Made by a program: the position numbers and the translations under genes
Notes under the pieces: generated by a model
The model's database searches: none
What the model saw: only the letters and a program-made list of their open reading frames with translations
What the model was told of the DNA's origin: nothing
Shown here: positions 3,792-37,201 of the stretch, piece after piece
How the letters are laid out: every line of letters begins with the position of its first letter
Numbering within the stretch: the first letter of the stretch is position 1
Origin: a virus
Length of the DNA stretch: 38,311 bases
Virus record (IMG/VR): IMGVR_UViG_3300040801_005322
Span: 1-38,311 of that record
Strand: one strand, 5' to 3'

Positions 3792-6158
3792 TTAAGCGGT
3801 TTTTAATTCATCAAGCAATTGCTTTTTCAACTCAGGAGGCAATTTCCATTGTGTTTGTTGAATCATCCGTTCCTTTTGCACGCTCGCTCCGGGTTTATAA
3901 TCAAACCCTGGGGTGATTGCTTTGTTTAATTGCTTCTTTTGACCTGTAACAGGGTCAATAACAATACGATAACCAATATTATTTAGTGTTTTTCTAATTT
4001 CAGTTTGAGGAGTTACTCGAAATCTTTGGCGGGTCATTTGCTCGCCATCAAGGCTGATCACTTTACAACGACACCGATAACCCAATGGTGGGGAATGGAA
4101 ATCCCAAAAAGCATCTTTAACCGGCCTAGTTGTGCCAGATAACATGCGATGATTGGGGCGCACCCTATTATCACCCACTGTCACATAACGCAAATAGGGT
4201 CGGGTTTCCACATTTTCCATAATATGGTCCCAATGACCCGCTGCCCTTGCCGTAGACATTTGGGTGTCAAAAATAACATTGGTACGCCATCCACGTTCTC
4301 CCTTGTACCCCCAGCCATGTTTGGCCACAATCTGATCAAAATTTTTCCGAAAATCTTGGATGGTTTCCCCATTTTTTAGGGCTTTTAAAGTAGCAACGTG
4401 TAAATCATTCAATAATTCTGTTTGGGTAACTCCAGCTACTACAAAAGCCCAACCATGTTGCTGGGCCTGTAAATCATTCCATTTTTGCGTAGGTATCTTA
4501 ATTTTCTGTTGTAAATAATCCACAGCTTCATCAAACGGTAACTCATTCAAGGTAATTTGAGTGTTAAAATTGAAATTATCCACCGGTTGTTTCATTTCCC
4601 AAATTCCAACCAGTCCCCCAATCAATAAGCCTTGTTCAAGTTTTTTAATTAGTTTTTTTTTATCCAATTGCTGATAAAGTTTTGCCAAGTTTCCTTGAAA
4701 CTCTTCTAAATTGGTAACATCATCCAAAACTTCTGCAATTTCACCCAACGGTAATAACGATTCCGCCTCTTGACCACCCTTAAATGCCAATTGCTCTAAG
4801 GAATCAGCCGAAATTAGAAGATTTTTATCAGGGTTTGCACTAAACGATTTTTGCGTTTTTTGCGTGAGAATTTGTTTCTCACCTATTCCATTGACGCCAT
4901 CAGAATTCATAGGTTCGTGATCATTTTTTTTGCCAATGAGTGATTCATTTGTTTCATTTGGAATCCGGTTATCAACCAAAGTGGCTTCCCCTTCTTTCGC
5001 CATTGGTACTCCAGTTTTTTCATGAACAAACGATATGGGTGTGGTCTTGCCAATAAGCGATTTAGTTGTGGTGAAGAAGTCTGCCCATTCCTTATTTGGT
5101 TTATCTTCTAGGATAAAAAGGTTTTGGGGTGCATTTGCACCAGGATAATTTAAAGCAACTATATTTTCCAAAAATATATTCGCATGAGGGTTATGCATTA
5201 ATATTGAATGCAAAATAAATTCTTGACTACTTGTCAAATGACCTTCAACAGCCGCAAAAGAACCTTCTTGGAAATTAGATATTAATGATTCCCGATTTAA
5301 TAACACGGAAATAGCATTATCAAGATAACGAATCTCTTCTAGCGACAATTGCCCATTATTTTTAGCTTCTCTAAATTCTATTTCAGCCCCGTTAGGGATA
5401 ACAGCGATACTATTATCTACCATTTTAGTTAATTCATCTCTCAACTTCTTTTGTAATGTATCGTTAGTACCCTCTCGATATTTAGCAATAACCCATGGTT
5501 TACTAAATGCCTCGACTAGCTTCGCTAAAGCTTTTAATCCATTGTATTTTAATACAATAATCCAATATAAACTGGAAAATATAGAAACGCCATAAGGACG
5601 TAAATTATTACTTAAATGGGTGGTAATAATAAATTTATAGGGATAATCACTTAATAACTCGCCTATTTCAGGCTGTTTTTTAGTTAAAATTCTAGGATTA
5701 AATTGTGTGTCAAAAACAATCCGTTGAGGTGAAATTTCTACTATTTTTGCCGGAATAATATGATTTTTTCCATCCCATTTTACATCTTGATAGACTATTT
5801 CTTGAACTTTACATCCACTGTACTTAGTAGAATAAAAACCCCAAATCAATTCGATAAAATGCATTTTATATTTTTTCAAATATTTAGCAGTGAAATCCGC
5901 TGCTTCTTTATCCATTCCAGATAATTCTGCACTATTATGGTCAGGCAATCTATATTCAATATTACATACTTGGGTATAAGCCACCTCTATCAATGAGAGT
6001 ACCTTGGGTTCCCTAATTATCTTTTCCCAAACCTCATCAAATTTTCCAAGTTTTTTGAATAGGTCATCAACCGGTGGCAATATACTCAAATCTTCATCAC
6101 CATCTGGACCGTTAGCTAATGACCCAATTGTTTCATATAAGAATTTGTCGTAATTCAT
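3792..6158 (-). CDS. Portal protein (Mu gp29/DUF935) fused to Mu F-like minor head protein, 788 aa
   Basis: Residues ~1-430 match the DUF935 portal family: FYSTKYSGCKVQEIVY, then RPYGVSIFSSLYWIIVLKYN, and a typical KPWVIAKYREGTND region followed by AVIPNGAEIEF. The portal is the dodecameric ring through which the terminase packages DNA. A low-complexity linker (~400-490) leads to the Mu F domain (~500-700), shown by PFDEAVDYLQQKIKIPTQKW, FVVAGVTQTEL and the signature HRMLSG...FWDFHSPPLGYRCRC near residue 690. In Mu these are two genes (29 and 30). Here they are one chain, as in some relatives. The start overlaps the preceding 83-residue gene by the 4 bases ATGA. The location downstream of the tape measure is unusual, since portal genes normally follow the terminase. 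Confidence 0.9.
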   Translation of the reverse strand: MNYDKFLYETIGSLANGPDGDEDLSILPPVDDLFKKLGKFDEVWEKIIREPKVLSLIEVAYTQVCNIEYRLPDHNSAELSGMDKEAADFTAKYLKKYKMHFIELIWGFYSTKYSGCKVQEIVYQDVKWDGKNHIIPAKIVEISPQRIVFDTQFNPRILTKKQPEIGELLSDYPYKFIITTHLSNNLRPYGVSIFSSLYWIIVLKYNGLKALAKLVEAFSKPWVIAKYREGTNDTLQKKLRDELTKMVDNSIAVIPNGAEIEFREAKNNGQLSLEEIRYLDNAISVLLNRESLISNFQEGSFAAVEGHLTSSQEFILHSILMHNPHANIFLENIVALNYPGANAPQNLFILEDKPNKEWADFFTTTKSLIGKTTPISFVHEKTGVPMAKEGEATLVDNRIPNETNESLIGKKNDHEPMNSDGVNGIGEKQILTQKTQKSFSANPDKNLLISADSLEQLAFKGGQEAESLLPLGEIAEVLDDVTNLEEFQGNLAKLYQQLDKKKLIKKLEQGLLIGGLVGIWEMKQPVDNFNFNTQITLNELPFDEAVDYLQQKIKIPTQKWNDLQAQQHGWAFVVAGVTQTELLNDLHVATLKALKNGETIQDFRKNFDQIVAKHGWGYKGERGWRTNVIFDTQMSTARAAGHWDHIMENVETRPYLRYVTVGDNRVRPNHRMLSGTTRPVKDAFWDFHSPPLGYRCRCKVISLDGEQMTRQRFRVTPQTEIRKTLNNIGYRIVIDPVTGQKKQLNKAITPGFDYKPGASVQKERMIQQTQWKLPPELKKQLLDELKTA

Positions 6159-20697: not shown

Positions 20698-21129
20698 TCA
20701 TTTTTTTTGTGAAGAAAATTTTTTATTTAACAATCGAATTGCTTCACTTTCGATTACTTCTATTCTTTCAAACAAATCTAATGAAACTTTTTTATTGGAT
20801 GCATCCTCCCATAATTTGATTTTTGCTAAAACAGTTGGCCAATCAAGAGAAATAAAAGTGCCACCTAATGGCTCACGATTTAAAATATGTCCAATTAACC
20901 TCCAAAGTTCAAACGCTTCTTCATTCTGTTCTAAAATAATAAAAACTTCGCCATCTTCATGATTAGATTGATTAGTAAAACTTTTTACTAATTGTTCTAT
21001 AACATTTTCTGGATAAATTTTAGCTTTTTCTAAAGATTCCCTATACTCTTGAACAGTTTGAGTGTTTTTAGGTGTTGATGAATTTTGTTGGACCCAAAAA
21101 CTAGCTATCTCTTTGAGGTTTTTATCCTC
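20698..21129 (-). CDS. In-frame, start-less extension of the tail-assembly chaperone (143 codons; G-T-like)
   Basis: Immediately after the TGA at 21132-21130 the same frame stays open for 143 codons to TGA at 20700-20698. There is no ATG, GTG or TTG until LDLF near its end, so independent initiation is unlikely. The sequence is protein-like: EIASFWVQQNSS at the start, then EDGEVFIILEQNEEAFELW and PLGGTFISLDWPTVLAKIKL. The last part has the layout of the small tail proteins found between tube and tape measure (an aromatic segment, then GG-x-x-x-S/G-L-D-Y/W). In lambda the matching T segment (~140 residues) is joined to G by a -1 frameshift. Here both segments share one frame, so UGA readthrough would give a 313-residue product. 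A rare ATT/ATA start is the main alternative. Confidence 0.7.
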   Translation of the reverse strand, partial: EDKNLKEIASFWVQQNSSTPKNTQTVQEYRESLEKAKIYPENVIEQLVKSFTNQSNHEDGEVFIILEQNEEAFELWRLIGHILNREPLGGTFISLDWPTVLAKIKLWEDASNKKVSLDLFERIEVIESEAIRLLNKKFSSQKK

Positions 21130-21639
21130 TCATTTTCTTCTTTTATTTTTCTTTTGGCTGGGGTCTACGATGCGCCCAAGCATGGTAAATAAACCCGAAA
21201 CATGTTCATTGACACTTAAAAGATAATCCATAGATAAAACTGGATCTCTAACAATAGTTACAGTTCCATTATCAATGTCTTCTTGTTTAATCGTGGACTT
21301 AGATTCTTTAATTATTTTTTCATCTGTCATTTCAGGGTGAACATATACCACTATTTGCTTTTCACCTGTTTCAGTGGTTAATATATCCTTTATTCCATCG
21401 CCAGGTGCAAATCCTTGAACATGTTCTTTGATAAAGAAATCTAAATCTTCGTTTCTTCTAGCCAAAGTCGAACCATCATCTGATACTGCATCTAACATAT
21501 TTGTCCATCTTTCTCTATCAGGTTGTCGGACATTTACCATAAAATTAACTATACGATTTGGTTTGTTCAAACCACCATTAAATTCAGATTCTACTAATTC
21601 TGGTAAATAACCTTCGTTTCTATCAACTGTTGCTAACAT
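21130..21639 (-). CDS. Tail assembly chaperone (lambda G-like position), 169 aa
   Basis: This gene sits between the tail tube gene and the tape measure, the conserved place of tail-assembly chaperones, which bind the tape measure and recruit tube subunits. It is 169 residues long, begins with ATG at 21639 after a purine-rich GGAAG, and contains RQPDRERWTNMLDAVSDDG and MDYLLSVNEHVSGLFTMLG. It ends with a lysine-rich tail (SQKKNKRRK) just before TGA. The TGA is followed by GAGG, seven bases and CCTC, a short stem that might pause ribosomes. No classical X-XXY-YYZ slippery heptamer is in register in the A-rich end. Identification rests on position, size and the downstream extension more than on motifs. 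Confidence 0.7.
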   Translation of the reverse strand: MLATVDRNEGYLPELVESEFNGGLNKPNRIVNFMVNVRQPDRERWTNMLDAVSDDGSTLARRNEDLDFFIKEHVQGFAPGDGIKDILTTETGEKQIVVYVHPEMTDEKIIKESKSTIKQEDIDNGTVTIVRDPVLSMDYLLSVNEHVSGLFTMLGRIVDPSQKKNKRRK

Positions 21640-21660: not shown

Positions 21661-23175
21661 TTAAAAAAAAGAAATGACCATTTCAGAGTCAAACGTAGTT
21701 GTTGAAGTACCTTTAGCTGCTAAAGTCATACTGACTGTTTTAACCCCTGCTTCATCACCCGAATCATCAGGATCATCAGAAATTTGTCCATAAGGGACAT
21801 CAAACCTAATCATTTTTCCTATTTCATTACCTATTTGTAGGGTAAAGGGGAGGAAAGTACCGTTTTTCCAGTAAGGCCATACATCCCATTCTTCAATGCG
21901 TTTTTTGACCAAACTTAAACTAACTGTGGTGTCTCTCTTATCTGTTTTTATCAGAAAGGCTGTAATACCACCGTTCATAGCTGGAATCGGTTCAACCGAG
22001 TGTCCTAGTTTAAATTCGGCTTTAAAAATTGTTGTATCTAACAAGTTTGGAAGCAAATCACCTAATGTACCCAACTTGAATTGAGCACTCTCACAATCTA
22101 ATGGTTGCTGAGTAGCATCAAAATCAGCAAAAATAAGGGGTTGAGAAAACGGTAATTCAAGCATCATTCCTTTGAATTCAAAATTGAAAACTACATTGCT
22201 AGTTTTCTCGGTTGAAACGGTAACGGTTCCTCTACAACCAGCTGCTCTTTTAGCCTCTCCATCCTCATTACTTAAAATAGTTAATGAATCATGTGTATCC
22301 CATGCGGATGAAGGAAAAAAAACCTTTCCAAAGTCGTTCACATCGGGACCATAGGTCGCTTTAACGGTTATTTTATCGCCTATACTCCAATCTGTTGAAC
22401 CATCCAGATTAATTTGAAAACTAATATGGGAAGTATTGTAAGAAACCCCCGATGTTGCATCCGCAAGTTGGGTGCTATCGGGTGCTATAACTTGCCAAGT
22501 TTCAGCATCCGGTGTATTATCGGTAACTGTGAGTTCATAATTACCTGGAATGGCATCAACACCAAATGAAATACCTGAAATAGTATCATCACCAGTGTTA
22601 GTAGGCTCAAAGGTAATAATTGCGGATAAAGTATCTCCACCGGTTGCGCTGGCAATATAACCCACTGCACCACTTTTTACCCCAGTAATCGCATTACCAT
22701 CAGAATAGGTTGCAGTATTATGCTTACGACAACTTAACCGTAATTTGTTATCAATAACATCAATACCATAAACCTTACCAATTTCTAATTCAGAAACGGT
22801 TTGCAACAATTCACCTGGTAAAAATGTGCCAGTCACATTTTCCAATGTAATGGTTAAGCGGTCATATTTAACCATTCCACAAGCTTGAAGCAAAACAAAA
22901 ACATCAGGCTCTATAAAATTCCCTAATTCATCAACGCCTTTAGGAATATAATGTGGTTTAATGGTAATATCATATTTGCCATTAACTTTTTTTCCACTTA
23001 ATATTTGAGTGGCTGTTGGCAACATTGGGTTATACTCAATTGAGTCAGCAGATGGTTTCATACTTACTTCTTCAGCAATAATCACCTGATATACACTAGA
23101 TGGAATCTCCCCATAATTTGTTTCTTTAGCCATCACCACTTGAGTTCTATGGTGATTTACAAAATTTTCATTCAT
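21661..23175 (-). CDS. Major tail tube protein, 504 aa, with an inserted beta domain
   Basis: The opening (MAKETNYGEIPSS from residue 15, then PLLPTATQIL-like MLPTATQILSGKK) and the C-terminal half (GTVTVSTEKTSNVVFNFEF, FKLGTLGDLLPNLLDTTIFK, GKMIRFDVPYGQ) fit siphophage tail tube proteins, which stack as rings around the tape measure. It is long for the family. Residues ~165-270 (GVDAIPGNYELTVTD, ADATSGVSYNTSHISFQINL, DWSIGDKITVKATYG) look like an inserted beta-sandwich that would face outward. The start at 23175 lies 2 bases after the preceding stop. The next gene downstream is the chaperone, as expected. Confidence 0.8.
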   Translation of the reverse strand: MNENFVNHHRTQVVMAKETNYGEIPSSVYQVIIAEEVSMKPSADSIEYNPMLPTATQILSGKKVNGKYDITIKPHYIPKGVDELGNFIEPDVFVLLQACGMVKYDRLTITLENVTGTFLPGELLQTVSELEIGKVYGIDVIDNKLRLSCRKHNTATYSDGNAITGVKSGAVGYIASATGGDTLSAIITFEPTNTGDDTISGISFGVDAIPGNYELTVTDNTPDAETWQVIAPDSTQLADATSGVSYNTSHISFQINLDGSTDWSIGDKITVKATYGPDVNDFGKVFFPSSAWDTHDSLTILSNEDGEAKRAAGCRGTVTVSTEKTSNVVFNFEFKGMMLELPFSQPLIFADFDATQQPLDCESAQFKLGTLGDLLPNLLDTTIFKAEFKLGHSVEPIPAMNGGITAFLIKTDKRDTTVSLSLVKKRIEEWDVWPYWKNGTFLPFTLQIGNEIGKMIRFDVPYGQISDDPDDSGDEAGVKTVSMTLAAKGTSTTTFDSEMVISFF

Positions 23176-23177
23176 AA

Positions 23178-23597
23178 TTAACTAGTCATATTTTTGTAAC
23201 ACGAGAAAACGCTTGTCCACAACAAACGTTCATTAACTTCAATTAATTCACCACCTTGGTATTCCATGCCAGAATAGGCTAATGTAGGCCGCCATCCTAA
23301 TAATTTTTTCTTAACTTTTTCTTTTAAAGTAATAACTAATTCCATTGAATCATCACCGCTGATTTGTCGTTTATTGTCAACAATAATATAGATTGCATAA
23401 TGTTCAGTCACATTTTGCAATACTTTATTCATTCCTTTATTAGGATTAGCCTCATCCCTCATTAAAAGCACATAAGCAGAAGGAGTTCTAACTGCTGATT
23501 TTTTAACCGCTTCATGGTCAACTGCTCCACCGACCGTCTGGAAATCTTCAATTAACTTTAATTGAGTAACAATTTCATGTCTTGTTGAAATACTCAT
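23178..23597 (-). CDS. Tail terminator / Mu gp37-like protein, 139 aa
   Basis: Size, position between the morphogenesis protein and the tube gene, and the pattern SAYVLLMRDEA, HYAIYIIVDN, LLGWRPTLAYSGMEYQGG and LLWTSVFSCY fit the small alpha/beta proteins of Mu-like phages that cap the tail tube and end its polymerisation. The final aromatic strand with W-x-x-x-F is characteristic. The start overlaps the preceding gene by the 4 bases ATGA (23594-23597), indicating coupled translation. Confidence 0.7.
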   Translation of the reverse strand: MSISTRHEIVTQLKLIEDFQTVGGAVDHEAVKKSAVRTPSAYVLLMRDEANPNKGMNKVLQNVTEHYAIYIIVDNKRQISGDDSMELVITLKEKVKKKLLGWRPTLAYSGMEYQGGELIEVNERLLWTSVFSCYKNMTS

Positions 23598-24007
23598 AAT
23601 GATTTTTCAATATACTCAACCATTATTCGTTTCACTTTAACTTCATCTTCATCGGTGACACCCAAAAATGGGCGAGCTGGTAAAAGTACACTATGGTTTT
23701 TACCTGTGCGTCCTCCAAATTGATGGATAGCGGCATACTTTAAGTTAGTCCCCAAAGATAAAGTATTTTGAAAAACTTGATAAGTAATGGAATGCCATAA
23801 ATGGCCACGATCTACTAAAGTGTTACCAACCGTCTTTTTTGATTTTGGACGAATTAGGTTTTGCGCAAACCTGAGTTGAGTTTCAGATAATAAATATCCG
23901 CCAACTTGATTTAACGGTTTAGCTAAACTGATTCCAGTTTTGCGTAAATGTGCTAAGGTTTCTTTGGAAATACCAAAACCTGTGAAATATAATCTAACCC
24001 CCGCCAT
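23594..24007 (-). CDS. Phage virion morphogenesis protein (Mu gpG-like), 137 aa
   Basis: The C-terminal half has the family signature: TLVDRGHLWHSITYQ (the L-x-x-T/R-G-x-L-x-x-S-I pattern), LGTNLKYAAIHQFGG and LPARPFLGVTDED. These proteins act in head completion or head-tail joining in Mu-like and related phages. The length matches the family. The gene overlaps both neighbours (23594-23597 and 23994-24007), typical of a tightly coupled morphogenesis operon. Confidence 0.85.
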   Translation of the reverse strand: MAGVRLYFTGFGISKETLAHLRKTGISLAKPLNQVGGYLLSETQLRFAQNLIRPKSKKTVGNTLVDRGHLWHSITYQVFQNTLSLGTNLKYAAIHQFGGRTGKNHSVLLPARPFLGVTDEDEVKVKRIMVEYIEKSL

Positions 24008-24218
24008 TGGTTACTTTTGTTATTTTTTCAGTTTCTTGCATCCTTTCCTTTTCCACATCACAAATCAATTCTTTAAAAATTGGTTTTATATCTAACGGAT
24101 CATAGTTAGTTTCATTCATGTTATTAATGTAATCCCGCATACCTTGAACGATCACAGCTTTTAACAAAAACACTAACCATGATTTAAAATGATTTAAAAT
24201 ATAATTAATTGCGCTCAT
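23994..24218 (-). CDS. Small hypothetical protein with a hydrophobic helix, 74 aa
   Basis: I prefer the ATG at 24218 because it overlaps the preceding stop as ATGA. An in-frame ATG at 24230 would add four residues. The first 30 residues contain a hydrophobic, possibly membrane-associated helix (FKSWLVFLLKAVIVQGM). The rest is charged (IFKELICDVEKERMQETEK). It lies between the DUF1320 and morphogenesis genes and overlaps both, so it is very probably translated, but I do not recognise a family. Confidence 0.6.
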   Translation of the reverse strand: MSAINYILNHFKSWLVFLLKAVIVQGMRDYINNMNETNYDPLDIKPIFKELICDVEKERMQETEKITKVTNGGG

Positions 24219-24706
24219 AACTTTGGCCAACTATTCCAATCAATTTGACTTTCTAAGCTTCCAGTGAAAATATTAGGAAAAAAATTATCTTCAAATAAAC
24301 TAGGCTTAATTAATTCAGCATCTTCATAAACATCATGCAACCAAGACTTTGCTTCGGTAAAGTCAGCTATTATTTTTTCTGTGGGATTATCCTTAGCTAA
24401 ATAATAGCGAACAATACTAGCACAATGCCTTCTAATCGGATTGGCGTCTATCGTTTCCTGAGATAACTGTGCTTTTTTAAGGTAACTATTAATTATCCTT
24501 GTTGCGTCTTCGACAGCTATTTTTATAGTTCTCCATGTAGCATCTGCTGTTTTTATTTCCTCATCACTATATCCTGTTCGATCACCTTCTAAAATAGTTA
24601 GATTTAATAAGTGTGCATTAATCGCTTTTTGTTCCGCAGATGTGGCAAACTGGGATAACTCAGTTAATCCAATAATATCTATTAACTCTTGAAATGTTAA
24701 GTACAT
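24215..24706 (-). CDS. DUF1320 / Mu gp36-like head protein, 163 aa
   Basis: The N-terminus MYLTFQELIDIIGLTELSQ and the segments AVEDATRIINSYLKKAQL and RRHCASIVRYYLAKDNPTE match the DUF1320 family (Mu gp36), all-helical proteins thought to sit at the head-tail connector below the portal. Its place directly after the capsid gene is the family's usual one. It starts 3 bases after the capsid gene stop and overlaps the next gene by 4 bases. Length is slightly above the usual ~140 residues because of a C-terminal extension. Confidence 0.85.
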   Translation of the reverse strand: MYLTFQELIDIIGLTELSQFATSAEQKAINAHLLNLTILEGDRTGYSDEEIKTADATWRTIKIAVEDATRIINSYLKKAQLSQETIDANPIRRHCASIVRYYLAKDNPTEKIIADFTEAKSWLHDVYEDAELIKPSLFEDNFFPNIFTGSLESQIDWNSWPKL

Positions 24707-24709
24707 TGA

Positions 24710-25750
24710 TCAAGTAAAGGTGGCTTCAATACACATTTCAGGGTTATGACACATGAAGAGTGGATCCATCTCCATTAAAATTTCTAATCGTGTTTCGTAT
24801 TTATCCATAGATTCTAAACCGTAAACTCTTTTTCCTTTTTTATTCCCGTCCACTAATCCTTTGAGATATGGGGACGCATTGTAACGCACAAACATATCTG
24901 AAGAGCCTAATGGGAAAAAATGAGCTTTCCCATCTTCTACAAAATTATAGACCTTATCAGTAGCGGCACTTGGGTATGTACCAGTTAACTTTACAAAGTT
25001 AATATTGTTAAATTTAAAACTGATCCAACCTGAAGTTTCACCTCTTTCCCTTTTATAGGCTTCAGGAACCCTTCTGATGAGGTTTGAAAAAAAAGATTCA
25101 GAACACCAAGCTTCTACACCTGTCATGATGTATCTTCTTAATTTTTTTCTCATGTGTTCCAAAACCAAATTGTCCAACCATTCACCAACTTGAACTTCTT
25201 TTATAGCCACACTACCATCACCAGTTATACTATCTAGCGACGAAAACGGCAGCTCAATTTCAGGTTTTTCAAATCCATATAATTCATATAAATCTAAAAT
25301 TTTATTTTCAGCCTCATCCACATTAGCCACAAATCCTTTTATCGCTGATAATTGAAGATGAATTTCACTGATCTCTAAACTTTCCATCAGATTGGCATAA
25401 CTAACACTTTTTTCTTCATCTAATGTATTAATTTTTTTGTTAGTTTTCCAATCACGATATTCTTGAATTCTTGTGGAATCGATAGTATCGCCGGCCAAAA
25501 GATGATGAGCGGTAACAACTCTTAGTATTGCTTTTCCCTTATCGATGTAAAATGGATTGCCTCCCCTAACAGAGAAAGGAATAGCTCCATTTTTTCCTTC
25601 CCTTTCGTATAAAGGAAGCTGTGTACCAATGATTCCTACTGTTTTAAATAGATTCCTTGGTAAGTAATTAATGGCTTCTGTACGATTTAATTCTTCAGTC
25701 ACCTCATAGAATTTAAAAGGGTCAAAAGAATTTTGAGTAAAATATGGCAT
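24710..25750 (-). CDS. Major capsid protein (phage capsid E family), 346 aa
   Basis: The length of 346 residues, the position after a decoration protein and segments such as EELNRTEAINYLPRNLFKTVG, VRGGNPFYIDKGKAILRVVT and the C-terminal YETRLEILMEMDPLFMCHNPE identify the lambda gpE-type capsid family (HK97 fold). The middle VANVDEAENKILDLYELYG and the DFFP-like HFFPLGSSDMFVRYNASPYL are also typical: capsid E proteins carry a buried aromatic-proline motif before the last domain. It forms the icosahedral shell. It begins 6 bases after the decoration gene stop and precedes the DUF1320 gene by 3 bases. Confidence 0.9.
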   Translation of the reverse strand: MPYFTQNSFDPFKFYEVTEELNRTEAINYLPRNLFKTVGIIGTQLPLYEREGKNGAIPFSVRGGNPFYIDKGKAILRVVTAHHLLAGDTIDSTRIQEYRDWKTNKKINTLDEEKSVSYANLMESLEISEIHLQLSAIKGFVANVDEAENKILDLYELYGFEKPEIELPFSSLDSITGDGSVAIKEVQVGEWLDNLVLEHMRKKLRRYIMTGVEAWCSESFFSNLIRRVPEAYKRERGETSGWISFKFNNINFVKLTGTYPSAATDKVYNFVEDGKAHFFPLGSSDMFVRYNASPYLKGLVDGNKKGKRVYGLESMDKYETRLEILMEMDPLFMCHNPEMCIEATFT

Positions 25751-25756
25751 TTTATA

Positions 25757-26143
25757 TTAAATTACTTTAATCATTGGGTTAAAAATTTGTAAATCATTTT
25801 TAGCTTTGAGAATTTGAGTCTCATCTAAAGCGTTTTTCAGTGTTATTTTTTTAAATCGAACGGTTGCTGGCCCCCTTACTAAAGCCATTGCTTTTGCAGT
25901 AGTAGTAGTTGCATCTACTAATGGTGTTGTTAAAATACCAGCAACAACTTCACTGCCATCAGTTGCGGTAGGATTTAAAGGAGTAAATTCACCAGAACTT
26001 GTAATTTTTCCTAGTAGGGTAGTCGCTATTAGAACGGTATCTTGTCCAGCGGCAATGGTAATTTCGTCCCTGTTGTAACCCTTATCCCATTCCATTTTCA
26101 GAACTTCATCTAATTTAACTGTTGATTCAGCTATTTTTGTCAT
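25757..26143 (-). CDS. Head decoration protein (lambda D-like), 128 aa
   Basis: The central motif LLGKITSSGEFTPLNPTATDG followed by EVVAGILTTPLVDATT and AMALVRGPATVRF is the classic pattern of the lambda gpD decoration family, whose trimers clamp onto the capsid surface and stabilise it after expansion. Length fits. The start overlaps the protease stop by 4 bases (26140-26143), and the capsid gene follows 6 bases later, giving the order protease, decoration, capsid seen in Mu-like and lambda-like heads. Confidence 0.9.
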   Translation of the reverse strand: MTKIAESTVKLDEVLKMEWDKGYNRDEITIAAGQDTVLIATTLLGKITSSGEFTPLNPTATDGSEVVAGILTTPLVDATTTTAKAMALVRGPATVRFKKITLKNALDETQILKAKNDLQIFNPMIKVI

Positions 26144-27045
26144 TTTTTATACTTACGCCCACGTTCCAGCATTTCTTTTTCAAAACTAACTGAAAAAGCG
26201 CTTTGGTGTTGTTCAACATTGTTTCTTTCAGGAGGTTCGGTCACCTCATACAAATATGGGTGAGTTGCTTGACTAAAATTTAAATTAATCTTTTTTAAAA
26301 ATTCTTGGAACCATTCAACCGGGTGTTGCTCTGATGTTCCAACAGCAAAATCTAAGGGAAAATCTTGCAACAACATCAGAAAATCAACTATCCCAGCTTG
26401 CTCAATACTCGGCGAAATATTGAGCGATTCCACTTCTGCCTTAAATTTTTGACGATGAAAATCATTTAAAGTTTTTTGAGCACTTTGTTTGAGAGATGCA
26501 ATCTCTTGTTTTAAACGAGTGACCTCATCACTAACGTTTGAAGGTTGATTAAAAACTTTATCATCACGAGATGATGAATAATTTTTTAGTAAGGAGGCTG
26601 CTAATTTGCTTTCTACAAAATCAAAAAAAACAATATCAAAGTGCTCGCTATTCTCATAAGAATTATCAAAAATATTTCCTAATCCAGTTACAGCCGGTGG
26701 AGCCGCACCTAACCAAGCAACATGACGCATATCCCAACTACCATCCGGTTGACGTACCAACCTAATAGAACGTTCTGGCAACATTTTCTTCTTGATGGCC
26801 TCGACAAATTCAGGTACTAGATCTCTGAATTTAGCAACTAGAAAATCACCATCACGTTTTACTTTTTCAACCCAACCGTAAGCCGCCGCCTTACTACTAT
26901 TACCGTGTTCATCACCATGATTTATGACAACCGGCACGTTAACTTCTTTTTTAGAAAAATTTTTGACTATTTTATCGATATCGTCGATTGTCCAATCTCT
27001 ATTTTTCCAACGGCCCACTCGGAAAATTTTTATCCACTCGTCCAT
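26140..27045 (-). CDS. Mu I-like head maturation protease with scaffold tail, 301 aa
   Basis: Residues 36-130 carry the family pattern: VNVPVVINHGDEHGNSSKA, AAYGWVEKVKRDGDFLVAKF, MLPERSIRLVRQ and DMRHVAWLGAAPPAVTGLG, which corresponds to the RHVxxLGAxPPAVxGL signature of Mu-like I proteins. These proteases process the scaffold and capsid during head assembly. The second half (DEVTRLKQEIASLKQSAQK onward) is a coiled coil, expected for the scaffold part that an internal start often makes as a separate protein. It overlaps the upstream methyltransferase by 16 bases and the decoration gene by 4. Confidence 0.85.
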   Translation of the reverse strand: MDEWIKIFRVGRWKNRDWTIDDIDKIVKNFSKKEVNVPVVINHGDEHGNSSKAAAYGWVEKVKRDGDFLVAKFRDLVPEFVEAIKKKMLPERSIRLVRQPDGSWDMRHVAWLGAAPPAVTGLGNIFDNSYENSEHFDIVFFDFVESKLAASLLKNYSSSRDDKVFNQPSNVSDEVTRLKQEIASLKQSAQKTLNDFHRQKFKAEVESLNISPSIEQAGIVDFLMLLQDFPLDFAVGTSEQHPVEWFQEFLKKINLNFSQATHPYLYEVTEPPERNNVEQHQSAFSVSFEKEMLERGRKYKK

Positions 27046-27878
27046 TTTGCCATCCTAGCTATTGCTGTTTTATAATAAATTTCGTTGTTTTCAATACAAA
27101 AATATTGCCGACCTGTTTCTAAACAGGCCAATGCCGTTGAACCACTTCCTGCAAACGGATCTAATACAATACCCTTTTCAGGGGTAAGTAATTCTACGAG
27201 TCTTTTCAATAGTTCAACTGGCTTTTCACAAGGATGATAATAAATTGACTTTGAAGTCCTGCCAGCACTCGCAGTAGGAGGTAAAAAAGACCAAACGTTG
27301 GTGTAATTTGATGTAGTATTCCTTTTGCGACCATTTTTTACCCTTCTAAGACGAGTAGGGCTAAAAATGGGTTGCCCTTTTTGAAAGGAAATAATATCTT
27401 CTTGATTTTTTGTTTTTATTTGGTTAATAAATTCATTAGACCATTTTTGCATACTTACCAAAACATTAACGTCATATAAAATTTTAGGTATCGTTACGTC
27501 GGAATAATTACCCTTCACTTTTTTAAAAGTTTTGTTTTTATGCCGATAAATAAAAATATTTTCAAAACCTTTATTTAAGGATAATTTCCCCGTTGGTGTT
27601 GTTTTTCTTTTTACCCAAGTAATATGCTCTCGATATTTTAATTTGCTTCGACTGGCAGCATTAATCCAGTCAATCATTGTCGGCATTTGCCCAAAAAAGG
27701 CATAAAAATCTTTACCAAGACGGGCGACTTGCTCAGTAAAAGTAAAAATATCAATAGGTTTATCCCAATCTGCAACACCTATACCGTAAGGTGGATCTAT
27801 GATAATAGCATCAAAACTTTTTTTGTTTAGTTTAGGTAAAATGTCAAAACAATTCCCTAATATAAATTGGCTTTCCAT
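27030..27878 (-). CDS. DNA methyltransferase, N6/N4 type, 282 aa
   Basis: Motif IV (IIIDPPYGIGVADWD, about residues 26-40) comes before the S-adenosylmethionine-binding motif I (VLDPFAGSGSTALACLE, about 238-254), the order of the beta class of amino-methyltransferases. HPCEKPVELLKRL just before motif I is typical. It would methylate adenine or cytosine amino groups in phage or host DNA, probably to protect against restriction or to mark phage DNA. No restriction endonuclease is next to it, so it looks like an orphan. It is the first gene of the head cluster, overlaps the protease gene, and starts just downstream of a repeated leader (27883-27936) that also occurs beside a decayed methyltransferase. 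Confidence 0.85.
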   Translation of the reverse strand: MESQFILGNCFDILPKLNKKSFDAIIIDPPYGIGVADWDKPIDIFTFTEQVARLGKDFYAFFGQMPTMIDWINAASRSKLKYREHITWVKRKTTPTGKLSLNKGFENIFIYRHKNKTFKKVKGNYSDVTIPKILYDVNVLVSMQKWSNEFINQIKTKNQEDIISFQKGQPIFSPTRLRRVKNGRKRNTTSNYTNVWSFLPPTASAGRTSKSIYYHPCEKPVELLKRLVELLTPEKGIVLDPFAGSGSTALACLETGRQYFCIENNEIYYKTAIARMAKWTSG

Positions 27879-27882
27879 TATA

Positions 27883-27936
27883 TTAATAATAATACTCGCA
27901 AAGCAGAAGTTTGTAAATGATAATGTTTATCATTTT
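27883..27936. repeat. Direct repeat copy A, containing a 9-bp hairpin
   Basis: This ~54-bp segment is nearly identical to 28731-28784. The shared core is CGCAAAGCAGAAGTTTGTAA followed by ATGATAATNTTTATCATT. Within it AAATGATAA (27915-27923) pairs with TTATCATTT (27927-27935) around TGT, and eight T residues follow on the plus strand. It ends 5 bases upstream of the methyltransferase start at 27878 (minus strand), so it forms that gene's leader. Confidence 0.85.
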
Positions 27937-27945
27937 TTTTACCAA

Positions 27946-27959
27946 AACGGTCGACCGTT
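27946..27959. repeat. Perfect 14-bp palindrome
   Basis: AACGGTCGACCGTT is a perfect palindrome with a GC-rich core in very AT-rich DNA, 10 bases from repeat copy A and 38 bases past the end of the decayed methyltransferase. It may be an operator for the methyltransferase/head transcript. Confidence 0.45.
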
Positions 27960-27997
27960 AAAACCATCCATTTTCATTAATAATGTTTGTTCTTCTA

Positions 27998-28545
27998 TCA
28001 TATAATTTCAAGTCTTTTATTTATTATATCTATATATTCTAAATTTAGTTCACTTCCCATAAAATTTCTATTTAAAATTTTTGAACATTTTGCGGTCGTC
28101 CCACTACCCATAAAAGGATCGTAGATTAAATCGCCTTCATTACTCCATGATTTAATATGGTCTTCAGCCAATTTGTCGGGAAATTTTGATACCTTTTACC
28201 ACTAGAAGGAAGTGGATTATTTTTACAATACATCATCGTATCATGCAATTTGAATCCACATTCCATAGCCCATAGAGCTTGCTTAAATGATGTTCCTGTC
28301 TCGCTACCATCTATTGTAGCATCTCCTACTATCCAAACAACAACACCACCAATTTTCACAACTCTAAACAATTCCGAAATTATAGGCTTCCAAACAAATT
28401 CATTCCATTTTTTATGAATATCATTTCCATAACTTCGAATGTTATCATAGGGAGGAGATGTTAAAACCATGTCAATAAAATTGACATTCATTTTAGACAT
28501 TGTATGCACACAATCCTCGTTATAAATCTTATTAAATTCTAACAT
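27998..28545 (-). pseudogene. DNA methyltransferase, frameshifted (182 codons if repaired)
   Basis: From ATG 28545 the frame encodes an amino-methyltransferase: KIYNEDCVHTMSKM, motif IV VLTSPPYDNIRSYG, and GGVVVWIVGDATIDGSETG. After SSGKRYQNF the listed frame runs into unrelated residues and stops at 28126. In the next frame the true C-terminus continues: FPDKLAEDHIKSWSNEGD, then motif I LIYDPFMGSGTTAKCSKIL and a stop at 27998-28000. Loss of one A in the A4/T3 stretch at 28181-28187 explains the break; adding it restores QKFP and a 182-residue enzyme. The break separates motif IV from motif I, so the product should be inactive unless the frame is recovered by slippage or the base is missing through sequencing error. 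Confidence 0.85.
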
Positions 28546-28692
28546 TTTTTAATCTTTCTATACAAATATTATAATATTCTTTAACCTTTTCAATACCTAT
28601 AAAATTTCTTTTTAAAATATATGATGCTTCTAAAGTTGTCCTGGAACCCAAAAAACAATCTAAAAAAAATCACCATCATTCGATGAATGCTA
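28532..28692 (-). pseudogene. C-terminal remnant of another DNA methyltransferase
   Basis: On the minus strand the frame ending at TAA 28534-28532 encodes FFLDCFLGSRTTLEASYIL and KRNFIGIEKVKEYYNICIE, the motif I region and C-terminal helix of an amino-methyltransferase. The expected glycine in DPFxGSGTT is replaced by arginine (GSRTT), which should damage cofactor binding. The frame is cut at a run of eight A residues (28662-28669, plus strand); one more base would join it to NDGD upstream. Most of the gene is gone. It overlaps the start of the frameshifted methyltransferase by 14 bases, so the two were once adjacent genes in one operon. Confidence 0.7.
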
Positions 28693-28730
28693 ATATTAAA
28701 TCTTTGATGATTGATAATTCTATCATTCAA

Positions 28731-28784
28731 TTAATAATAATAACGCAAAGCAGAAGTTTGTAAATGATAATATTTATCATTTTT
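28731..28784. repeat. Direct repeat copy B, containing a 9-bp hairpin
   Basis: Second copy of the ~54-bp repeat at 27883-27936, in the same orientation. Differences are a 2-base gap near the start (AATACTCGC against AATAACGC), one substitution in the hairpin loop region (ATGTTT against ATATTT) and a shorter T-run. It lies between the methyltransferase remnant and the divergent terminase gene. The two copies bracket both broken methyltransferases. Confidence 0.85.
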
Positions 28785-28846
28785 ATTTATATATTTTAAA
28801 TATATGAATAAAATAAATTAATAAATAGAATGATGATTATAACTAT

Positions 28847-30724
28847 ATGGCTAATAAAAATATTGAAGGAAAGAGTAAAGCAAGAGAGTTGTATGCTAAA
28901 GGTTGGGTAATGCAAGATATAGCCAGGGAATTGCAAGTCACACCTGTGACTATTTCAAATTGGAAAAAGTTGCACCAAGAAAGTGAGTATAATTGGGATA
29001 AGTACAAGGAATACATGGCGGTTGGTTGGGAAGAAGAGGAAAAGAGACGACGAAAACGTCGGCGCATTACTTTAAAAGGTAATTTCGGATTTTTTTGTAA
29101 GTACTATTTTCCTAATTATGTGCCTAAAAAATTTGGAGTAAATCAAGAATTCTTAATTAGACGTTTTCCTAAACTTATTATGCGTGATGGGGAATGTCGA
29201 GAATGGTTTATCTTGCCAAGAGGTGAAGGCAAAACGACTTTGCTTGGCAAACTGGGCACTCTTTGGGTAATTGTTTTGAACTTATTAAAAAGGAAGGAAA
29301 TTAGGAATGAAATAGGTCTGGAGAAATTATCTTTTAATCCAATAAATTATATATTGCTACTTGGCGCAAATGAATCGTTACCGGGTAAAACGTTAGATGT
29401 TATCAAGAGACAATTAACTAGCAATAAAAAACTATTGGCTGATTTTCCTGAGATTTTTGGAGAAGGGGAGATTTGGAATAACAATACGATCATTACCGCT
29501 AATAGGGTTAAAGTTGAAACCTTTGGCATTCAACAAGGATTACGCGGAACGACTTACGATGAATTTAGAGCAGAGCTGATTATCCCTGATGATATTATTA
29601 CTGACGAGGAGGCAAGAAGCGCTACCATCTGTTACAATCGTTGGGATACCTTTTCTAAAAGTGTTGAGTATTTAGGTCCACCGGATGGCTCGGTGAAAAT
29701 TATTTGCGCTGCGACAGTGTTAAGTAATACTGATCCAGTAAGCACTGCGAAAAAAACACTGGGGCATACCGTTCACCATCGACAAGCTATGATTGCTTGG
29801 CCGGTTAATATGGAATTATGGCACAAGCTAAAAGAAATCATGCTAAATCACGATGCGGCATACAAGCAAGAGTTTTCAGAAAAATTTTTTGAATACTGGG
29901 AATTACCTTCTTATCAATTTTATTTGGAAAATAAAAAGGCAATGGATGAAGGAGCAGTTACTTCTTGGCCAGATTATATCCCCTTGTATAAACTCATGTT
30001 TTTATATTTTAAAGATAAATATTCTTTTTATTCAGAAAAGCAAGGTACCCCCGTCAACGAGGCCGATAAAAAATTTACCAACATTCAACATTGGGATAAG
30101 CTTGAGGCTGGCTTGGTATACTATGGTGCTTGTGATCCGAGTTTAGGAAAAACCGAAAAAAGTCACCCTTCGGCGATTATCATTGGGGCCTATAACCCAA
30201 CCACGCAAAAACTTTATTTAGTTGAGGCTAACATCGAGGTACGTACTGCATCAAAATTACTAAATGACTTGATTTTATTACAAAATAAATATCAATGTGA
30301 GGTTATTATTTTTGAAAGCACTAATGCGTATGACTACATGCGAGAACAGTTTCAAAACCAAGCATTTCAAATGGGGTATCACTTACCTCTTATTGGATTC
30401 TCTCCATCAATTCCTAAAATGGTGAGAATTAATGCGCTCGAACCCTATATCTCAGGTGTTAATACCCAGATTTATTTTCATCTTAGATTAGTTAAATTAT
30501 TGAATGAATTAGATACTTGGCCGGTATTACAAAAAGAGCATGATTATGATGGCTTGTCCGCTTTGTATTTGTTATGGTTTGTGGCGTTAAATAATTATAC
30601 TTATTCAAACCAAGTATTATTTGGTAATAGATTAGAATCTAGCAATATTGAATTACCATTTACCTCAAATGAGGTGGATGTTGGCTTTGGACAATTTGAC
30701 GTTGATTCATTGTTTTATTTTTAG
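28847..30724 (+). CDS. Terminase large subunit with fused N-terminal helix-turn-helix, 625 aa
   Basis: Residues 11-42 (ARELYAKGWVMQDIARELQ, then VTPVTISNWKKLH) form a helix-turn-helix like that of small terminase subunits of the P2 gpP type. The ATPase follows: Walker A LPRGEGKTTLLG (residues 123-134), Walker B ELIIPDD (242-248), and a coupling region ICAATVLSNTDP (285-295). The nuclease has D429 in YGACDPSLGKTEKS, E489 in VIIFESTNAYD and D565/D567 in HDYDGLSALYLLW, the three acidic positions of the RNase H-like fold. It packages DNA into the head through the portal and cuts it. It is encoded opposite to all other virion genes. The ATG at 28847 has no clear Shine-Dalgarno sequence and an AT-rich leader. 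Confidence 0.9.
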   Translation: MANKNIEGKSKARELYAKGWVMQDIARELQVTPVTISNWKKLHQESEYNWDKYKEYMAVGWEEEEKRRRKRRRITLKGNFGFFCKYYFPNYVPKKFGVNQEFLIRRFPKLIMRDGECREWFILPRGEGKTTLLGKLGTLWVIVLNLLKRKEIRNEIGLEKLSFNPINYILLLGANESLPGKTLDVIKRQLTSNKKLLADFPEIFGEGEIWNNNTIITANRVKVETFGIQQGLRGTTYDEFRAELIIPDDIITDEEARSATICYNRWDTFSKSVEYLGPPDGSVKIICAATVLSNTDPVSTAKKTLGHTVHHRQAMIAWPVNMELWHKLKEIMLNHDAAYKQEFSEKFFEYWELPSYQFYLENKKAMDEGAVTSWPDYIPLYKLMFLYFKDKYSFYSEKQGTPVNEADKKFTNIQHWDKLEAGLVYYGACDPSLGKTEKSHPSAIIIGAYNPTTQKLYLVEANIEVRTASKLLNDLILLQNKYQCEVIIFESTNAYDYMREQFQNQAFQMGYHLPLIGFSPSIPKMVRINALEPYISGVNTQIYFHLRLVKLLNELDTWPVLQKEHDYDGLSALYLLWFVALNNYTYSNQVLFGNRLESSNIELPFTSNEVDVGFGQFDVDSLFYF

Positions 30725-36100: not shown

Positions 36101-37201
36101 ATGGCAACCACACTCGCAAATCACATAAAAAAATCCGTACCTGTCAACGCACCTCCTCGTGAATACGAGATGCTTATTAAGAGTATTCCCAAAAATACTC
36201 TGAATGTCTATCAGACTGCTTTCAATACATACAAGCGAGTGATGGGCGTTGAGCTTGATTTCGAAAATCCCACTCAAATTACCCCCAAGAATATAGTTGA
36301 CTTCATCGTGAATGTTAACAATAAAAATGGCAAACCACCTGCCTATTCAACCTTAATGGTGCATCTGTCTGGTTTACGAACGTACTGCAAAATCACTGGC
36401 CAAGAAGATGCCACCATAGCACCAGAAGTGGATACGGCGAAAAAACAATATGGTAAATGGCAAGGAAAACGACAAAAAAGAAAAAACCTCCTAACAGAAA
36501 ATGAAATATTCAAAATTATCAAATTTTTTAAGGATCAAAAAACAGTCCTTGCTGAAAGAAACGCTTTAATACTATTAATTGCATGGTATGGCGCCGCACG
36601 CCGTGGAGAGATTGCTAATCTCAAAATAGAAAATATAAAAAGCTACGAAAATGGCATTGTGATATTTTTGGAACGCTGCAAAACAGACCAAACGGGGGAA
36701 AAAAATTATTGTCTGTACCTACCGTTCAGCAATAACGAATATTGCCCAGCCAAACTTCTTGATAAATGGTTAGCACATCTAAAATCATTTGGAATAACAA
36801 GCGGTTATCTTTTTCGTCGCATGGCTAGAAGTGGGTATATCAATTTAAAAAATAATCCGCTATCCGGTGTAACCATCAATAACGTATTTAAAGAAGGCTT
36901 AAAAAGTGTTGGTTTGGACGAAAAAAAGTACAGTATTCATTGCATTAGAGGCTCCGCGGCTAAAACCGCTTACATAAATACCAGAGATTTTTTGCAAATA
37001 CAACGAACCGGAAGATGGGAGAGACCAGAAACCATAACAAAATATTACATCGACTTCGAGAACGATGAATTTTTAAAGGATCATCCCTTACTACCAAAGG
37101 GAGCAAAACCTAAACAAGCAAACATTCGACAAAAACGCTCCAAGCAACCCAAGTCCCTACTACGTCCAGCAACAACAAGCTCAGGCAACAATTCCTTATG
37201 A
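36101..37201 (+). CDS. Tyrosine recombinase / integrase, 366 aa
   Basis: A SAM-like core-binding domain (residues ~20-110: NVYQTAFNTYKRVMG, AYSTLMVHLSGLRTYCKITG) precedes the catalytic domain. Active-site residues are visible in order: R167 (GAARRGEIANL), K194 (ERCKTDQTG), H280 and R283 (HCIRGSAAKTA), W306 in the usual second-histidine position (GRWERPETI) and the nucleophile Y315 or Y316 (TKYYIDFE). It would integrate or excise the element by site-specific recombination. The ~45 residues after the tyrosine are unusual, low-complexity and basic, and an overlapping +1 frame looks more protein-like there (see 37077-37343). Preceded by a weak AGGAT 9 bases upstream of the ATG. Confidence 0.9.
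   Translation: MATTLANHIKKSVPVNAPPREYEMLIKSIPKNTLNVYQTAFNTYKRVMGVELDFENPTQITPKNIVDFIVNVNNKNGKPPAYSTLMVHLSGLRTYCKITGQEDATIAPEVDTAKKQYGKWQGKRQKRKNLLTENEIFKIIKFFKDQKTVLAERNALILLIAWYGAARRGEIANLKIENIKSYENGIVIFLERCKTDQTGEKNYCLYLPFSNNEYCPAKLLDKWLAHLKSFGITSGYLFRRMARSGYINLKNNPLSGVTINNVFKEGLKSVGLDEKKYSIHCIRGSAAKTAYINTRDFLQIQRTGRWERPETITKYYIDFENDEFLKDHPLLPKGAKPKQANIRQKRSKQPKSLLRPATTSSGNNSL

Follow-up and report, generated by a model that had tools for sequence, protein, structure and literature searches.

Candidate UGA readthrough in a phage tail assembly chaperone gene whose T domain lies in frame behind the stop codon

Analysis of a virus record of 38,311 nucleotides (IMG/VR IMGVR_UViG_3300040801_005322, taken over its full length and called the window below) revealed a long-tailed phage that probably makes its gpGT by UGA readthrough at the homologous position, the frameshift mode having been exchanged and both position and purpose kept; this reading is put forward with modest confidence. 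It is considered the best reading of the locus because T lies in the 0 phase behind G and the TGA stands where the relatives recode. In the proposed mechanism, the UGA would end translation for most ribosomes, which yields G; in a few percent of cases a near-cognate tRNA, probably tRNA-Trp, would decode it and translation would run on into T. The resulting 313-residue G-T fusion would link the tape measure (via G) to the tail tube subunit (via T). We infer that the fusion is made and that readthrough is its maker, and likewise the level and the inserted residue. The genes and the codon concerned are the following:

21130 to 21639, minus strand: G-like tail assembly chaperone, short form, an open reading frame of 169 aa with its ATG at 21639 and the C-terminus QKKNKRRK-stop
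21130 to 21132, minus strand: TGA stop codon, the proposed readthrough site, in the context AGA AAA TGA GAG and aligned with the presumed shift codon of the closest relatives
20698 to 21129, minus strand: T domain (DUF1799 / PHROG_680) of 143 codons, with its terminal TGA at 20700-20698
21661 to 23175, minus strand: tail tube protein, upstream of G, with 35% full-length identity to the same-place protein of a Parabeggiatoa-associated phage (L121)
6409 to 20559, minus strand: tape measure protein, downstream of T, of 4716 aa, which matches annotated tape measure proteins over its N-terminal 320 aa

The open reading frames confirmed the arrangement described in the sequence-only reading, that is, a 169-codon frame ending in TGA and a start-less extension of 143 codons in the same frame. 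Past the TGA at 21132-21130, the G frame stays open for 143 further codons, up to the TGA at 20700-20698, and the joined G-T product counts 313 residues. The TGA is the only break separating G and T, both of which are in one frame and have no programmed-frameshift relation. The other forward frames shut at once after the junction (ATG AGA GGA TAA; GAG AGG ATA AAA ACC TCA AAG AGA TAG), and the overlapping ATG at the junction encodes M R G and then a stop. Since both other frames close immediately, the earlier argument that the extension is out of reach of one slip by -1 or +1 was right. A slippery heptamer in a usable phase was not found at the G/T junction, the canonical AAAAAAC or GGGAAAC being absent at the site, and a canonical -1 slip into T is impossible with the frames as given.

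The extension has the character of coding sequence that lacks its own start. Its first ATG, GTG or TTG is codon 119; about 6.5 start codons would be expected before that point from the window's own codon usage and none was observed (binomial P=0.0013), and start-free stretches of equal length inside real genes amounted to 163 of 8418 (1.9%). The chance of a 143-codon open run was P ~6e-5. The codon-usage score was 0.47 bits/codon for the extension and 0.36 for G, and about 0 or less for the other forward frames of the extension, which is gene-like in this frame only. When the whole window was scanned for ORFs that begin with ATG, span 80 codons or more and are followed by at least 60 open codons in the same frame, five cases were returned: four of the five extensions have a start at codon 0-2 and are ordinary neighbouring genes, and the G/T locus was the sole exception, with an extension that has no nearby start. 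A non-standard ATA is present at codon 8 of the extension. What follows the stop is in-frame, conserved coding sequence with no standard start before codon 119, the two properties looked for in a readthrough candidate.

Comparison with DUF1799-type profiles identified the extension. A profile made from canonical -1 relatives, which left out the window's own clade, matched the extension with E=5.7e-12; the match to PHROG_680 had E=1.2e-4, and that to Pfam DUF1799 was weak (E=0.04, under the Pfam cut-off). Position 1 of the -1-relative profile, the first K of KKL within the slip site, aligned with T residue 3 after the TGA. T shares 36 and 35% identity, respectively, with the loci L113 and L114 described below. 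The AlphaFold2 model of T reached a mean pLDDT of 91.3, and its first predicted helix begins at residue 2 after the TGA, in a block with a mean pLDDT of 95. Most of the named structural neighbours in BFVD were chaperones for the tape measure or for tail assembly (E 0.02 to 0.4, probability 0.80-0.98); solved structures resembling T were not found in the PDB, and tblastn of T against phage records gave no match. Because of the profile match, the start of the alignment, the confident fold and the structural neighbours, the identification of the extension as the T domain of the gpG/gpGT tail assembly chaperones, beginning at the TGA, is strongly supported. Together with the start scan, these results bear out equally strongly the sequence-only reading of the extension as the second, T part of the long form in a gpG/gpGT pair, with no usable start.

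The chaperone gene is located between the tail tube and the tape measure genes, the place at which a gpG/gpGT gene is sought. For G itself, no family match was found by sequence, the comparison with the G proteins of frameshifting relatives gave nothing significant (hhalign probability 0.6%), and the structure model was poor (pLDDT 37). G is accordingly identified by its position and by the in-frame T extension, and homology to known G proteins could not be confirmed. The surrounding genes showed several features of their own. The tape measure protein (4716 aa) takes up 37% of the 38-kb record. The tail tube protein carries, at residues about 192-276, an inserted domain resembling the phage head decoration protein D (Cyanophage Cy-LDV1), and this insert is present in L121 and absent from L122. 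Downstream of the tape measure gene, a single protein combines the Portal (Mu type) and Mu F-like domains, and the terminase is on the opposite strand (3792-6158 (-) and 28847-30724 (+), respectively); the head genes are rearranged compared with MP29. A tyrosine integrase is encoded at 36101-37201, and no transposase was seen among the subset of the window's genes that was searched. A DNA methyltransferase gene, at 28545 to about 27940 (-), has decayed, with the N-terminal and C-terminal motif parts in different frames and the stretch between them apparently lost; the same state is found in L002, a second record described below. The genome therefore carries at least one broken gene.

The recoding of relatives was surveyed by locating DUF1799 domains in the sampled genomes and in Mu-like siphophage relatives and determining the phase from G to T at 74 loci, not all of which are independent (e.g., L190/L204 and L198/L199). 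AAAAAAC or GGGAAAC in the exact -1 phase for T was found at 70 of the 74, T mostly opening with KKL or GKL, and three more loci look like -1 cases (L189, with AAAAAAT; L143, with GGAAAAC; and L177, which is less clear). The phase of L126 was unreadable; the automatic phase call is unreliable for L126 and for L150-L152, and these loci were not counted as evidence. The closest relatives found were four loci of the order of Ca. Parabeggiatoa (L113, L114, L115, and L182), and L121 is the virus record of the L113 phage. The closest terminase found was also in the Ca. Parabeggiatoa order (L055, 48%). In all four loci T is in the +1/-2 phase, and three of them contain UUU_CGU in the G frame (L113, AAT TTT CGT; L114, AAT TTT CGT GGA; L182, TTT TTT CGT GGA), the variant at the site in L115 being AAC TTG CGA. 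UUU_CGU is the +1 shift motif of influenza PA-X (PMC3498833) and is probably the shift site of L113, L114, and L182 as well, as judged from the sequence. In L113, L114, and L182, and in variant form in L115, all of them phages of the Beggiatoaceae order, this PA-X-like UUU_CGU stands in place of the A_AAA_AAC of nearly all other DUF1799 phages. Against the four close and 74 wider loci, the window is the single 0-phase case, and no in-frame stop was found at the junction of any of them. In the relatives found, the TGA is not conserved and the phase is that of a frameshift.

The position of the TGA was compared with the site in the relatives. At the junction, L114 reads AAT TTT C GTG GAC AAA AAT CTA and the window reads AAA TGA GAG GAT AAA AAC CTC. 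The conserved L of NL comes five codons after the site in each of L114 (V D K N L), L115 (E Q T N L) and the window (E D K N L), and the TGA of the window aligns with the presumed shift codon of L114. A random TGA within a 313-codon frame would be unlikely to land on this codon; a phase-changing indel near the junction would likewise expose a nearby stop. UGA readthrough, the mechanism proposed from the letters of the window, finds partial support in this placement and in the shared frame of G and T; a relative with an in-frame stop was not found.

UGA is not reassigned in this phage. It terminates ten other genes of the window, most of them with another in-frame stop close behind, and tryptophan is encoded by TGG (142 codons); the reassignment of UGA (codes 4/25) was ruled out on these grounds. 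A suppressor tRNA was not found within the window, and a paper on UGA-reading tRNAs (PMC13092985) does not mention Beggiatoa or Thiotrichales. Two possible RNA elements lie 3' of the TGA:

21115 to 21129, minus strand: small GAGG/CCTC stem of 4 bp with a 7-nt loop, directly 3' of the TGA, present in the 73-nt fold and absent from the longer fold, of doubtful role
21064 to 21101, minus strand: possible 10-bp hairpin GUUUUUGGGU/ACCUAAAAAC, about 28 nt 3' of the TGA, weak

RNA folding near the junction gave z=-2.06 for 73 nt and z=-0.75 for 151 nt, and strong structure downstream of the TGA was not found in either fold. The A-rich context and the GAGG/CCTC stem, which had been offered as signals, are not convincing, the stem being lost in the longer fold. 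Of the stop codons in E. coli, UGA is the leakiest, and a G after the stop, as in the UGA-G of the window, reduces termination accuracy (PMC11126739); random UGA sites show a mean readthrough of ~0.5% at 37 C, with some at several percent, and Trp is the residue inserted most often (PMC11126739). The long form of lambda is made at a ratio of about 1:30 (PMC5009743), and the Mu frameshift occurs at about 2.2% (PMC3498833). As the leakage of random UGA sites reaches the levels of lambda and Mu, the range would overlap what these phages need, and no special signal would be strictly needed.

Against readthrough, the phase gap to the closest relatives is what one indel in the A-rich linker could cause. 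The weak predicted RNA structure, the lack of a suppressor tRNA in the window, the decayed methyltransferase gene, the unconfirmed homology of G, the single record of the site and the lack of relatives with an in-frame stop there also count against it. Such a one-base event, natural or artefactual, is on the whole possible, though doubtful. In its natural form, which is unlikely, the phage would carry a defect or a mutation of very recent date, either a point mutation or an indel of one base in the A-rich linker, and this copy would no longer make G-T. One indel would suffice for it, given the +1/-2 phase of the closest relatives; every T frame has some upstream in-frame stop, and the methyltransferase has decayed in both the window record and L002. 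However, the 143 codons of T are uninterrupted, their usage is gene-like and the predicted fold is confident; the TGA is at the recoding position and not anywhere in the 313 codons; and the structural genes, the 14.1-kb tape measure gene included, are otherwise unbroken. Its artefactual form, a single wrong base near the junction that arose in sequencing or assembly while the phage truly frameshifts like its relatives, is rated as distinctly less likely than the natural one. The site is present in one record only, the linker is A-rich and of low complexity, and the phase of the relatives is one base away. L002 (IMGVR_UViG_3300040781_000274), which is the same virus assembled twice, is 100% identical over 6126 bp (window 22926-29051) and shows no gap, the site itself lying outside the overlap; the tape measure gene runs for 14.1 kb with no frame break, and canonical AAAAAAC or GGGAAAC is absent at the site, all of which argues against an error. 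A second record across the site was not found, L002 ending at window base 22926. A pattern scan across the site that allowed any codon in place of the TGA gave no hit in viral_contigs or in the 43 genomes of the order, and single-sequence scans of viral_contigs with G, T, capsid, and terminase returned only L002 as a close relative.

Two further explanations are improbable. In the first, T would be made separately, either from a non-standard start (the ATA at codon 8, for example) or through reinitiation once G has stopped, and weak ribosome-binding sites are indeed common in the window; however, a T begun at ATA would lack the conserved NL as well as some of its first helix, no standard start occurs before codon 119, the overlapping ATG gives only M R G before a stop, and T follows G by recoding in the relatives. 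The second and slightly weaker one, an in-frame bypass in which the peptidyl-tRNA would leave AAA and land on the AAA four codons on (AAA UGA GAG GAU AAA) with few residues dropped, has matching take-off and landing codons in frame, a small stem overlapping the stretch and the precedent of hops on synthetic constructs (PMC5009743), but AAA is common in an A-rich stretch, so that such a match is expected by chance, and a natural in-frame stop hop is unknown (PMC5009743).

G-T recoding is among the most conserved in phages, and the described cases use a change of frame (PMC5009743, PMC10885494). The recoding review of Atkins et al. describes it as frameshifting (PMC5009743), and PRFect treats the tail chaperone as frameshifted, a programmed shift by multiples of three being undocumented (PMC10885494); a description of readthrough in a tail chaperone gene was not found in the open-access literature. 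If UGA readthrough is true here, the ratio of short to long protein and the junction would be what is conserved, and not the slip, and the locus would represent a natural swap of recoding mode, as in the gammaretroviruses, which use readthrough where other retroviruses frameshift. For gene finders, it would mean that the T domain of a tail chaperone can hide behind an in-frame stop. The T4-like tail assembly chaperones, which are not a known readthrough case, were reportedly proposed by Vladimirov et al. in 2022 (cited in PMC10885494) to use something besides frameshifting.

The window resembles known systems to different degrees. In the established pair, the major tail protein is the partner of T and the tape measure that of G (PMC5009743), so the statement of the sequence-only reading that the second part of the long form binds the tape measure was wrong. 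The locus is like the gpG/gpGT genes that lambda and most other long-tailed phages express by -1 frameshift in its place between tail tube and tape measure, in having a short and a proposed long form, and in its homologous T (DUF1799/PHROG_680) joined at the same place; it differs in having T behind a UGA in frame 0, with no usable slippery heptamer. Phage Mu gpGT (-2) and the SPP1 and Listeria tail genes (+1) are likewise cases of low-level recoding in tail genes, but they change frame. The L113, L114, L115, and L182 prophages are the closest relatives found in T and tail tube, with an equal distance from the site to NL in L114 and L115, although their T is in the +1/-2 phase and UUU_CGU is present in three of the four. 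Outside the tailed phages, the coat/A1 pair of Q-beta extends a protein by low-level in-frame readthrough of a stop, as is proposed for the window, in an RNA virus and with unrelated proteins. The gag-pol of MuLV uses low-level in-frame readthrough of one stop to yield an extended protein (PMC5009743), again as proposed for the window, but it belongs to an RNA virus with unrelated proteins and uses UAG with a stimulatory pseudoknot.
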